64,000 bases of DNA from a virus. Positions 53,361 to 61,077 of the stretch are shown here, in pieces. A model generated the notes under the pieces. It saw only the letters and a list, made by a program, of their open reading frames with translations, was not told the origin of the DNA and did no database searches. A program made the position numbers and the translations under genes. Every line of letters starts with the position of its first letter. The stretch's first letter is position 1. The stretch is taken from IMG/VR virus record IMGVR_UViG_3300048588_000476, positions 1 to 64,000 of that record. One strand, written 5' to 3'.

Positions 53361-53573
53361 ATGAAAATAATCCGAGCTGAACGCTGGGACGAACCGGAAG
53401 ACGCCAAGTGCGTCGTGTGCGACATGCCTACAATAGGCTGGGCGCAGACAGACCAGATGTCCGGCGTCCGACGGGTCGTCCTGCCTTGCGGGTGCTGTAA
53501 TCAACTTGACACCCCGCATGCGATACCCGACGACATGATCGCCGTGGCTCTGCTGATGTTGGAGGAGACATGA
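53361..53573 (+). CDS. Array zinc-ribbon protein 1 (type A)
   Basis: 70 residues. C17/C20 knuckle (C-V-V-C), second knuckle L-P-C-G-C-C (C43, C45), C-terminal helix I-P-D-D-M-I-A-V-A-L-L-M-L-E-E. ATG 53361 is chosen over an upstream in-frame ATG (53280) because it follows the palindrome and matches the length of the other members. GGAGGA in the last codons serves the next gene (ATGA overlap). Function unknown for the whole family. Confidence 0.7.
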   Translation: MKIIRAERWDEPEDAKCVVCDMPTIGWAQTDQMSGVRRVVLPCGCCNQLDTPHAIPDDMIAVALLMLEET

Positions 53574-53761
53574 ACAAAATAGCGGCAGCATGGCGCCCTG
53601 TGCACCCCCAAACGTGCGTCGAATGTGGAGCCCCCGTTGAGGGGTATGTGTTTATGGAGGGAAGACCGCACGGGGGCACGTTGCCGTGTGGGTGCAGTTT
53701 CTCCGGCAAGTTGACGCCCGAAGAGATAGCACTAGCCTTGCTCATGCTGGAGGGTGAATGA
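53570..53761 (+). CDS. Array zinc-ribbon protein 2 (type A)
   Basis: 63 residues. Knuckles C16-V-E-C19 and L-P-C40-G-C42; C-terminus L-T-P-E-E-I-A-L-A-L-L-M-L-E-G, the clearest form of the family's tail. ATGA overlaps at both ends. Confidence 0.72.
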   Translation: MNKIAAAWRPVHPQTCVECGAPVEGYVFMEGRPHGGTLPCGCSFSGKLTPEEIALALLMLEGE

Positions 53762-53979
53762 GACGCGCGGCATCACTCCGGTACATGCACGGGTACAACG
53801 GCCCCAACTGCTGCCCGGCATGCGACTCCCCCGTCACTGGGTTTGTGCTCGACGGCAGAGCACGGCACATATACGTCGTGCCATGCGGGCACCGCTCGAC
53901 GAATCCAGAGTGGTGCTCGAAGGGACAGCGCCAGCTGACGCCATTCGAGATAGCGTTGATGTTATTGGAGGCAGAATGA
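53758..53979 (+). CDS. Array zinc-ribbon protein 3 (type A)
   Basis: 73 residues. C19-P-A-C22 (preceded by another Cys) and V-P-C43-G-H45; an extra Cys at 53. C-terminus L-T-P-F-E-I-A-L-M-L-L-E-A-E. ATGA-coupled on both sides. Confidence 0.72.
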   Translation: MRRAASLRYMHGYNGPNCCPACDSPVTGFVLDGRARHIYVVPCGHRSTNPEWCSKGQRQLTPFEIALMLLEAE

Positions 53980-54188
53980 AACCAAGACCGATCCTCAAGG
54001 TGGAGCAGAGCCCCGGCCCCACTAGCTTTTGTGGACTGTGCAACCGTAATCGTGCATGGTACGCAGAAGCAGAGGACTGCGGGAATACGTACCGCTTCGA
54101 CCTCCCGTGCGGGCACTCGTGGGGAGTACAGGTGCACCTCACGCCCGAAGAGCTGGCCCTAGCCTTGTTGATGATGGAGGGTGCATGA
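53976..54188 (+). CDS. Array zinc-ribbon protein 4 (type A)
   Basis: 70 residues. C19-G-L-C22, L-P-C45-G-H47, tail L-T-P-E-E-L-A-L-A-L-L-M-M-E-G-A. The final 48 bases are identical to those of member 8 (54985-55032), pointing to recent duplication or gene conversion. ATGA start is used rather than the longer in-frame ORF. Confidence 0.72.
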   Translation: MKPRPILKVEQSPGPTSFCGLCNRNRAWYAEAEDCGNTYRFDLPCGHSWGVQVHLTPEELALALLMMEGA

Positions 54189-54391
54189 AACAAATCACAA
54201 GCGTGCATCGGTACTCAATGACCGGCGTGCATTGCGAGGTATGCCACGAGCCGAGTAACGGATGGGCGTGCGTCGACCAGATGCACTTTTTCGCCATGCC
54301 GTGCGGGCACCAGCGGACCACCAAGCACGTACTCACCCCGCGTCTGCATGCGATAGCCTTGCTCATGTACGAAGGGGCCGAACGTGACTAG
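54185..54391 (+). CDS. Array zinc-ribbon protein 5 (type A)
   Basis: 68 residues. C17-E-V-C20, M-P-C40-G-H42; tail L-T-P-R-L-H-A-I-A-L-L-M-Y-E-G followed by A-E-R-D. ATGA with member 4; member 6 starts at a GTG eight bases before its stop. Confidence 0.7.
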   Translation: MKQITSVHRYSMTGVHCEVCHEPSNGWACVDQMHFFAMPCGHQRTTKHVLTPRLHAIALLMYEGAERD

Positions 54392-54593
54392 AAAATTCCA
54401 TATGCGCCAAACGATGGCGTCCGTGCAAGGGCAGCCGGCTAAGTGCCCTCAATGCCGTCGTTTTGTCACGCACTTCCTGTGGACTAATGCAAGCACTACT
54501 GGGTTCGCGCTGCCATGTGGGCACCATCCGGAACCTATTCAGCTCAGCCCCGAGGACTTGGCCCTAGCCTTGTTGATGATGGAGACGGTGTAA
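54384..54593 (+). CDS. Array zinc-ribbon protein 6 (type A)
   Basis: 69 residues from GTG 54384. C21-P-Q-C24, L-P-C45-G-H47, tail L-S-P-E-D-L-A-L-A-L-L-M-M-E-T-V. Shares one base with the next start (TAATG). Confidence 0.7.
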   Translation: MTRKFHMRQTMASVQGQPAKCPQCRRFVTHFLWTNASTTGFALPCGHHPEPIQLSPEDLALALLMMETV

Positions 54594-54826
54594 TGCCTAC
54601 CCTAGACATAAACGCCGAACTAGACTTCTTCCCCGCTGACGAGCGCACAGGGCAAGCGTGCCCCCTGTGCAACGAGGTAGTGCGCGGATGGGCATCGGCA
54701 ACGAGGTATGTCGGGCACCCGACGCTGTTCTGCCTCCCGTGCGGGTGCGCCCCGTTCCAGTTCACCGACTGGTCGATGACGCCTGCACTGCATGCACTGA
54801 TGCTCCTACGAATGGAGGGCGTATGA
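54593..54826 (+). CDS. Array zinc-ribbon protein 7 (type A)
   Basis: 77 residues. C23-P-L-C26, L-P-C50-G-C52 with an extra Cys at 47; tail M-T-P-A-L-H-A-L-M-L-L-R-M-E-G. ATGA into member 8. Confidence 0.7.
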   Translation: MPTLDINAELDFFPADERTGQACPLCNEVVRGWASATRYVGHPTLFCLPCGCAPFQFTDWSMTPALHALMLLRMEGV

Positions 54827-59446: not shown

Positions 59447-59450
59447 CATC

Positions 59451-60329
59451 ATGACTGTCTCTGTTGCCGATCGTTTGCTTGCCACCAAGCTGTTCGTTTC
59501 GAAGTGGTCCGGCGAGGCGTCCGTTCCCAAGGTCGCCCGCGAGGCCGAGGACTCCAACAATGCCCGCCGCGGCACCGTGCGCGCCTCTGCCAAGGTGTTT
59601 GAGTCCGACGAGCTGAAGGCGGTGCTGACCGAAATGGCCCAGCTGTATGCGTGGTGGCGTGGCCGTACGGCGCCGTGGCGTGACGGTGGCTGGCGCGTGC
59701 TGATGGCGGACCAGTCCATGCAGTTCATGGAGGAGGCTGGCGACCGCATCGCTGTCATCGAGCAGAAGCTGCTCCCCGCCCTGTACGACACCTACCCTGC
59801 CCATCTGGAGGTGTGCAAGCTGCAGATGGGGGCGCTGTTCACACAGGTGCGCTACCCCGAGCCCAACGAGCTGGCCCGCCGGTTCGCCATCAAGCTCTCC
59901 TACGAGGCGGTCCCGTCGGCCACAATGCTGGAGCGGTTCGGAACGTTGTTCACCGCGGAGCAGTTGGAGGAGGCCAAGCAGCAGGAAGCCGCCATGCTCA
60001 CCGCTGCTGTGGACGACGTGTGGATGAAGCTCGCCGACCCGGTCACGCACCTGATCGAAGTCCTTCGCAAGGCGGACGACGGACAGCACAAGCGTTGGCA
60101 CGACAGCCTAATCACCAACATCGTCGACGCCGCCCGTGCTGCCAGTGCACTCAACTTCACCGGCAGTGCGGAGTTGGCGCAGATTGCCGAGGACATGCTG
60201 GTCGAGCTGGGACCGGTGCAGAAAGAGCACCTCAAGAACAACCCCGCCACCCGTGCCGATGTCCGCGCCAAGGCAGAGGCGTTGCGCGAGCGCATGTCCG
60301 GGTTCCTGCCAATGACTCAGGAGGAATGA
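59451..60329 (+). CDS. Helical protein upstream of the MoxR/VWA pair, possibly DUF3150-like
   Basis: 292 residues, ATG 59451 with AGGAG upstream. N-terminus L-L-A-T-K-L-F-V-S-K-W-S-G-E-A, then mostly helical (A-E-Q-L-E-E-A-K-Q-Q-E-A; R-A-K-A-E-A-L-R-E-R-M). The opening (two hydrophobic residues, then W-S-G) resembles the DUF3150 family that often accompanies phage MoxR ATPases; this is a tentative match. It sits inside the zinc array, before three more array genes. Confidence 0.55.
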   Translation: MTVSVADRLLATKLFVSKWSGEASVPKVAREAEDSNNARRGTVRASAKVFESDELKAVLTEMAQLYAWWRGRTAPWRDGGWRVLMADQSMQFMEEAGDRIAVIEQKLLPALYDTYPAHLEVCKLQMGALFTQVRYPEPNELARRFAIKLSYEAVPSATMLERFGTLFTAEQLEEAKQQEAAMLTAAVDDVWMKLADPVTHLIEVLRKADDGQHKRWHDSLITNIVDAARAASALNFTGSAELAQIAEDMLVELGPVQKEHLKNNPATRADVRAKAEALRERMSGFLPMTQEE

Positions 60330-60330
60330 T

Positions 60331-60567
60331 GTGATCATCGGGCTTCTGTCGTTCTTACATCCGGCCGAGCGCAAGCACTGGAAGTTTCGGCCGGGGATGG
60401 GGTGTGACTGCGGCGATCCTGTCGGGGTGTGGCAGTTTTACGGCGACAGCCCGTGCTTCGAACTGTGCACGCACTGTTGTCGGTTCTTTGACATGGACGG
60501 CGTGCCGATGGATGTACTGCCGGAGGAAGTAGCGTTGTTCTTGCTGACTATGGAGGGCTCACAGTGA
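60331..60567 (+). CDS. Array-type zinc protein 29 (degenerate type A)
   Basis: 78 residues from GTG 60331. C25-D-C27-G in place of the first knuckle, C42-F-E-L-C46-T-H-C49-C as second; tail L-P-E-E-V-A-L-F-L-L-T-M-E-G. The retained tail shows kinship with the array. Overlaps member 30 by GTGA. Confidence 0.62.
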   Translation: MIIGLLSFLHPAERKHWKFRPGMGCDCGDPVGVWQFYGDSPCFELCTHCCRFFDMDGVPMDVLPEEVALFLLTMEGSQ

Positions 60568-60806
60568 GATCGATAGCGATTCCGAAGGACGCAAAGTGGC
60601 GATACACAAAGGGCGATTCGTGTGTAGCGTGCCTTGGTCCGCAGATATGGGGCCACGGTACGGTATGGCGTACGTTTCAGAACACCCGCAAGGCGTTTGC
60701 GTGGAACGCAGAGTTGTGCCCCGCATGTGCGTGTCTTCGGGTAGGGCGCAGCTATACCACATTGCCAGCGGCAGAAGTAGCATTGATCCTTTTGAAGGCG
60801 CAATGA
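60564..60806 (+). CDS. Array-type zinc protein 30 (degenerate type A)
   Basis: 80 residues from GTG 60564. C20-V-A-C23, then C52-P-A-C55-A-C57; tail L-P-A-A-E-V-A-L-I-L-L-K-A-Q. Classical ribbon spacing rather than P-C-G-H. Confidence 0.62.
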   Translation: MRSIAIPKDAKWRYTKGDSCVACLGPQIWGHGTVWRTFQNTRKAFAWNAELCPACACLRVGRSYTTLPAAEVALILLKAQ

Positions 60807-60807
60807 C

Positions 60808-61077
60808 ATGGCCGGACGATTCCCGCGGGTGCAAATCCCCGACGACGTGCAGTGGACAACCGCACCAGACCCGTGGAGCACCTGCCGTAAATGCGGCGCT
60901 CCTTGCATTCGAGGGGACGGTACGGCGTATGTTCGGCAAACAACCGTCGCCCGGCAAGTAACGGCGTATGTATGGTATGGTTCTGTATGCCCGAAATGTA
61001 GGACAATCACAGCAGGAGGTATAACCAACTATCTGTCACACAAGCAGCTAGCATTCATCCTTCTCGCAGCAGACTAG
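60808..61077 (+). CDS. Array-type zinc protein 31 (degenerate type A)
   Basis: 89 residues, the longest. C26-R-K-C29 (plus C33), then C61-P-K-C64; tail L-S-H-K-Q-L-A-F-I-L-L-A-A-D. Last gene before the MoxR ATPase. Confidence 0.62.
   Translation: MAGRFPRVQIPDDVQWTTAPDPWSTCRKCGAPCIRGDGTAYVRQTTVARQVTAYVWYGSVCPKCRTITAGGITNYLSHKQLAFILLAAD

Follow-up and report, generated by a model that had tools for sequence, protein, structure and literature searches.

A tandem array of 31 diversified zinc-ribbon-like mini-proteins in a 65.7-kb phage genome

What does a phage gain from encoding 31 versions of one mini-protein? The question is raised by IMG/VR virus record IMGVR_UViG_3300048588_000476, a sequence of 65,844 bases of which positions 1-64000 were analysed (the window). 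The last 127 bases of the record repeat its first 127, so that the 65.7-kb phage genome is probably complete. On the plus strand, positions 53361-61077 are filled by 31 small open reading frames (ORFs) of 59-89 aa and one gene of 292 aa (59451-60329), here named z01 to z32, with z29 as the larger gene. The array takes up 7.7 kb, more than 10% of a compact genome, and since this share is spent on versions of one mini-protein, the phage must gain from their diversity. A preliminary description of this DNA had seen in it a long tandem series of diversified mini-proteins of zinc-ribbon-like type, and the analysis of the 31 ORFs upheld it, with a CxxC motif in every member and a second knuckle in 30 of them. 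We tentatively read the array as a repertoire of protein binders, small and of zinc-ribbon type, that could serve host takeover or counter-defence.

Protein motifs and predicted fold

Shuffling of residues within each protein left CxxC in a mean of 5.8 members (maximum 13), against the 31 observed; among the window's other ORFs of 50-100 aa, the motif occurs in 17 of 205. Two knuckles, found in 30/31 members, and the PCG[HC] motif, found in 21/31, are each present in a single one of these 205 ORFs. The picture of one family with common marks has to be refined, as the array is composed of two related subfamilies (hhalign E 4.7e-5) and five outliers (z18, z19, z30, z31 and z32). The larger subfamily comprises the 21 PCG[HC] members; in the second (z23, z24, z25, z27 and z28) the second knuckle is a CxxC and the proteins have FPGDPAQYRALWALL ends. 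Every member of the larger subfamily has C17, C20, P43, C44, G45 and L64; at position 46, 13 members have H and 8 have C, and the four ligand positions are kept in 21/21. The loops 9-16, 29-39 and 47-53 mostly exceed 2.5 bits of entropy, and helix positions 59-66, covering all faces of the helix, are hydrophobic in 81-100% of members.

AlphaFold2, supplied with the array's own alignment, modelled the 21-member profile as a small beta domain of three strands followed by a C-terminal helix (56-68), with a predicted local distance difference test score (pLDDT) of 94 and a predicted template modelling score (pTM) of 0.81; the model of the second subfamily was weaker (pLDDT 79.7, pTM 0.66). A zinc fold with a helix had been anticipated; the confident prediction is of a beta domain and helix, and Foldseek searches of the PDB and of viral models returned no significant match for the larger subfamily. 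The best structure matches of the second subfamily, non-significant as well, were Elf1 and Rpb9-type ribbons, and the nearest folds and profiles overall, also non-significant, were the RNA-polymerase-associated zinc ribbons Elf1, Rpb9 and RPC10. The four ligand positions and the beta/helix model may represent a zinc-ribbon fold, which would bind zinc; one face of the helix may pack on the ribbon, and the other would form an interface, either with a partner or between members.

Array layout and translational coupling

Four segments can be distinguished, all on the plus strand. The first (53361-56557) consists of the fifteen PCG[HC] zinc-ribbon genes z01-z15, starting at 53361, 53570, 53758, 53976, 54185, 54384, 54593, 54823, 55029, 55241, 55485, 55694, 55924, 56130 and 56354, whose joints are overlaps of 4, 1 or 8 bases with the sole exception of a +4 spacing ahead of z11. 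The second (56576-58180) holds z16-z22, with starts at 56576, 56815, 57054, 57272, 57514, 57723 and 57929, among which z18 and z19 are divergent and lack PCG[HC]. The third (58193-59446) holds z23-z28, starting at 58193, 58420, 58629, 58834, 59010 and 59225, and is of the second-subfamily type with two CxxC motifs and FPGDPAQYRALWALL-type ends, z26 differing as a PCGH-type member. Beyond z29, the fourth (60331-61077) is formed by the divergent Cys-rich members z30, z31 and z32 (starts at 60331, 60564 and 60808).

Nineteen small genes start in a 4-base ATGA or GTGA overlap and three more in an overlap of 1 or 8 bases; the near-continuous ATGA chain of the preliminary description holds in large part, with interruptions at z11, z16, z23-z26 and z28 and around z29/z30/z32. 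A Shine-Dalgarno (SD) sequence of the GGAG/GAGG type precedes 25 of the 31 starts, and in 24 genes GGAG lies within the gene's own last 27 bases. C-terminal codons such as ATG GAG GGT are at the same time the SD of the following gene, and those of the conserved LLMxEG end contain the GGAGG that the next gene uses. As the helix codons also hold the next gene's ribosome site, each gene is a self-contained cassette. The GC content of the array by codon position (0.57, 0.47 and 0.69) fits coding sequence, and none of the 31 members is a broken copy.

Evolution of the array

The double use of the C-terminal codons raises the question of what conserves the helix. Where two members share a residue in the helix columns, their codons match in only 34% of cases across pairs, so the helix is maintained for its protein sequence. 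Of the C-terminal motif reported earlier, the LALALL part is on this evidence a protein-level signal, whereas the terminal 'MEG' is attributable in part to the SD of the next gene.

Two paralogue pairs are mosaics at the DNA level, their constant blocks being near-identical and the remainder sharing about 40-48% nucleotide identity. In z04/z08, 71/72 bases are identical in two blocks and 51/129 elsewhere (third positions: 23/24 within against 15/43 outside); in z27/z28 the figures are 33/33 inside and 84/174 elsewhere (third positions: 11/11 against 23/58). The p-values of 5e-7 (z04/z08) and 2e-4 (z27/z28) are optimistic because the blocks were picked after the fact for their likeness. This block-wise test replaced a first estimate of silent-site contrast, since identical-residue codons outside the helix often agree too. 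A 48-nt block spanning the C-terminal helix, SD and ATGA overlap (54141-54188, plus strand) is identical to its second copy in z08 (54985-55032, plus strand). Recombination or gene conversion limited to the constant blocks would be the simplest reading of these alignments.

Silent sites are near saturation among members. Recent tandem duplication was rejected for z01-z17, where adjacent genes resemble each other no more than randomly drawn pairs do, and the array is for that reason not a recent amplification; a lag-4 similarity signal over the same genes had p = 0.04, uncorrected for the 8 lags.

Searches for homologues

No member exceeded a curated cut-off in Pfam, NCBIfam or PHROGs, the best matches all being sub-threshold. 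A tblastn search of 50,697 phage records with z08 and z28 gave chance primase matches and no homologue, and a DNA pattern for the coupled C-terminus found 41 chance stretches in IMG/VR, none with family members. Profile-seeded scans of IMG/VR and GTDB genomes yielded no homologue; as these collection scans were seeded by short peptides, distant relatives would be missed. The profile of the larger subfamily (A1) gave a few weak, short matches and no homologue in about 98 whole related records, and that of the second subfamily (A2) no homologue in 31, the phage's own genome serving as positive control with 22 and 5 matches, respectively. The profile searches did not end in a single known function and an absence of other arrays, the outcome that had been named beforehand as refuting the description.

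Regulatory signals

The array had been placed behind a consensus promoter. A perfect (12/12) sigma-70-type match, TTGACA-17-TATAAT, does occur at 52195-52223 on the plus strand as a promoter-like site identified by consensus; it sits 1.1 kb upstream of z01, and because of this distance its role in driving the array can only be inferred. The intervening 52224-53360, about 1.1 kb, holds no convincing gene, and Rfam gave no match, this stretch included; it may be a long leader or contain unrecognised genes. Upstream of the promoter match, 51370-52300 is AT-rich with repeated AAATTTCGAGGGGGCC and TGTTAAAAGCATGATTCTAAAG units and is possibly a replication origin or regulatory region.

Directly ahead of z01, which has no SD, lies the palindrome GTTGATAGCTATCAAC (53337-53352, plus strand), with further copies at chain breaks at 55456, 56553 (one mismatch) and 58176. 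The window contains 13 copies (964, 6390, 12287, 50182, 51067, 52078, 52317, 52782, 53337, 55456, 56553, 58176 and 62199), or 14 with a weak one at 29431, where one is expected. They are found mainly in the early region, frequently ahead of SD-less starts (z01, z16 and z23) and sometimes within genes, and no exact copy was present in any locus examined from other records. The palindrome resembles dispersed repressor-operator or start-associated sites.

The source genome and the neighbouring z29-AAA-VWA module

The genome encodes a family A DNA polymerase, an SNF2 helicase, a DUF927-type primase, a head-tail connector (portal-type) protein and a terminase. By portal protein the closest isolate is Pseudomonas phage Rollin (42%), followed at greater distance by Roseobacter, Rhizobium and Pelagibacter phages; no relative at the DNA level of 40001-64000 was found in the phage collection. 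The gene order resembles that of Rhizobium phage RHph_TM3_14A: terminase, many small genes, ATPase, metallopeptidase/VWA, polymerase, helicase, primase. The terminase large subunit (45847-48183, minus strand, 778 aa) has an intein-like start GCLPAETEFLTPAGW and resembles LAGLIDADG-type PF14528 weakly and below cut-off (E 5e-4); it probably carries an intein with a homing domain.

The array adjoins the replication module, the structural genes being on the other strand, and leads straight into three genes on its own strand: z29 (59451-60329; 292 aa, without Pfam or PHROG match), a MoxR-type AAA ATPase (61123-62184) and a putative metallopeptidase with a VWA-like domain (DUF2201; 62330-63607). 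Scans with z29 and the AAA protein found no relatives; relatives of z29, AAA and VWA do co-occur in related phages, where z29 is conserved beside the other two genes.

Although the same family was not recovered, arrays of other small-protein families stand at this locus in relatives. Among 16 relatives with AAA and/or VWA genes, five (Rhizobium phage RHph_TM3_14A, G015, G029, G038 and G076) have a tandem family of four or more small paralogues no further than about 5 kb from AAA-VWA. These families have 4-11 members and no zinc motifs, and several show a constant terminal helix-like motif; in RHph_TM3_14A the family has an 'AMLLG' helix and its constant part is N-terminal. In G076 (L276:11686-20002) eight diversified small paralogues with the constant end PPEDWPDEVCxAVAKxxL flank the AAA and VWA genes, and in G029 (L161:2496-5979) five paralogues with WDAARDAA-type repeats lie between and after them. 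The clusters seen in L146 and L173 were dismissed as low-complexity artefacts, as was a small basic one with R/G repeats in L161. A common origin with the G038 family (profile A8) is unsupported, A1 and A8 showing no relation (hhalign probability 0.2%). With arrays in only 5/16 relatives and in none of six N4-like phages with AAA-VWA, the link between array and module is weak: the locus tends to hold arrays, and a tie to the module is unproven. Small phage genes generally reside in early regions anyway.

Possible functions of the array

Under the binder-repertoire reading, the likeliest of those considered though short of even odds, a translationally chained operon would express about 30 small zinc-ribbon proteins on one plan, and the constant blocks would let cassettes be homogenised or re-joined by recombination, which is proposed because the two mosaic pairs are near-identical in blocks and diverged elsewhere in their DNA. 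The variable ribbon surfaces would bind differing protein targets, and the constant hydrophobic helix would dock to a common partner, for which the neighbouring z29-AAA-VWA chaperone module is a candidate, or pair members with one another; jointly the members might act as an early host-takeover or counter-defence repertoire. In favour of this reading are the 31 consecutive members with CxxC, the confident model, the kept ligands and helix beside variable loops, the mosaic pairs, the mostly negative net charge, the unrelated tandem families of relatives and the independent parallel in phage G. Several observations weigh against it. The family has no homologue in the searched collections, and the expected multi-copy arrays of it in related phages, with changing membership, were not found in the phage records, IMG/VR, GTDB or related records. 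The module stands without an array in 11 of the 16 relatives that have it and in the N4-like phages. Amino-acid-changing differences were not shown to exceed silent ones, silent sites being near saturation, and the all-hydrophobic helix can also form the core of its own protein or hold together a homodimer.

It is rather unlikely that the members serve the z29-AAA(MoxR)-VWA/metallopeptidase module as clients or substrate adaptors, in which case the helix would be a docking tag and the module would remodel or cleave the bound target. The module is a direct neighbour in the same operon and conserved in relatives, five of which have other small tandem families alongside, several with a constant terminal helix; phage G too has a metallopeptidase/VWA relative, and MoxR-vWA conflict systems join variable proteins via small constant domains (PMC7159879). 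Yet the constant helices differ between families (A1 against A8), the constant part is N-terminal in the Rhizobium phage, most relatives with the module lack an array, and the jumbo-phage MoxR-VWA pair has been proposed to serve virion assembly (PMC7824862). Extending the favoured repertoire into a modular viral binder system, in which a constant piece would join the docking helix to the ribosome site, variable zinc-ribbon heads would be reshuffled at constant blocks and recruit diverse host proteins to the phage AAA-VWA/metallopeptidase machine, and other scaffolds would supply the variation at this locus in relatives, would be quite improbable. Chaperones of the MoxR-VWA type can serve virion assembly (PMC7824862), and with the hydrophobic helix this would suit a hetero-oligomeric virion or assembly component; the array's position beside the replication module, on the strand opposite to the structural genes, and its strongly diverged loops make this the least probable of the explanations considered.

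A role as regulators of transcription, directed at DNA or at the RNA polymerase, or as structural DNA-binding proteins is unlikely. It has been proposed for the ribbons of phage G (PMC7824862), and the nearest, non-significant folds and profiles point to RNA-polymerase-associated ribbons; but net charge is negative in 20/31 members (mean -1.35), and because members are mostly acidic a nucleic-acid-binding role is disfavoured. No DNA-binding zinc ribbon was matched significantly, and binding to RNA polymerase would equally suit a repertoire of protein binders. Mosaic blocks in the DNA, and cassettes that are self-contained and bring an SD of their own, would also be expected if cassettes piled up under little selection as a by-product of recombination, which we regard as very unlikely, given that ligands and helix are conserved over many members though silent sites are near saturation, and that no broken copy occurs in an array of this size.

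Comparison with known systems

The array had not been recognised as a described system. A zinc-ribbon lineage-specific expansion of about 35 copies was, however, reported for Bacillus phage G by Iyer et al. in 2021 (PMC7824862), with the suggestion that its members are transcription factors or structural DNA-binding proteins; this is the only comparable array that we found described, and it is unrelated in sequence (no homology to gp32 or gp444-474, hhalign probability 0%, cross hidden Markov model E >= 0.05; no match of A1 in phage G). In phage G (NC_023719) we found 34 matches to gp32, with 28 genes in one run, gp444-gp474 (L300:561-19002), annotated merely by these numbers. The family consensus consists of a variable region, CPIC...C.N.CY and a constant C-terminal helix, YWKENDRYLxKIL. 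Both phages have a tandem run of diversified CxxC-knuckle proteins made of a variable part, a ribbon (a putative one in the present array) and a constant C-terminal helix, in a genome that also encodes a metallopeptidase/VWA relative. The phage G proteins are larger (181-223 aa against 59-89 aa) and belong to a 497-kb jumbo phage; their genes show few overlaps, and their array is distant from the VWA gene. Judged by sequence, the present array is another, independent case, carried by a small phage and made up of far smaller proteins.

The families beside AAA-VWA in relatives share the locus, the small diversified tandem paralogues and usually a constant terminal helix-like motif, and differ in having fewer members (4-11 against 31) and neither shared zinc motifs nor a detectable sequence relation (A1 and A8 compared). 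By analogy, the MoxR-vWA ternary conflict systems (PMC7159879) also combine an AAA-vWA core, a third conserved protein and variable proteins with a small constant part; those systems are bacterial and have enzymatic effectors, their third component being of VMAP, iSTAND, FtsH or beta-propeller type, and Pfam gave no VMAP, iSTAND or EAD domain in the proteins scanned, z29 having no match and the small proteins no EAD match. Segmental amplification of anti-defence genes in phages (PMC13096335, PMC9391042) likewise gains tandem copies by recombination, but those copies are recent and near-identical, whereas the copies here are old and strongly diverged. Two independent zinc-ribbon arrays, in phage G and in the present genome, together with other arrays at the same place in relatives, suggest that carrying repertoires instead of single inhibitors is a general strategy of phages; provided that their members bind different proteins of the host or of defence, arrays of this kind would offer new inhibitors in compact form.

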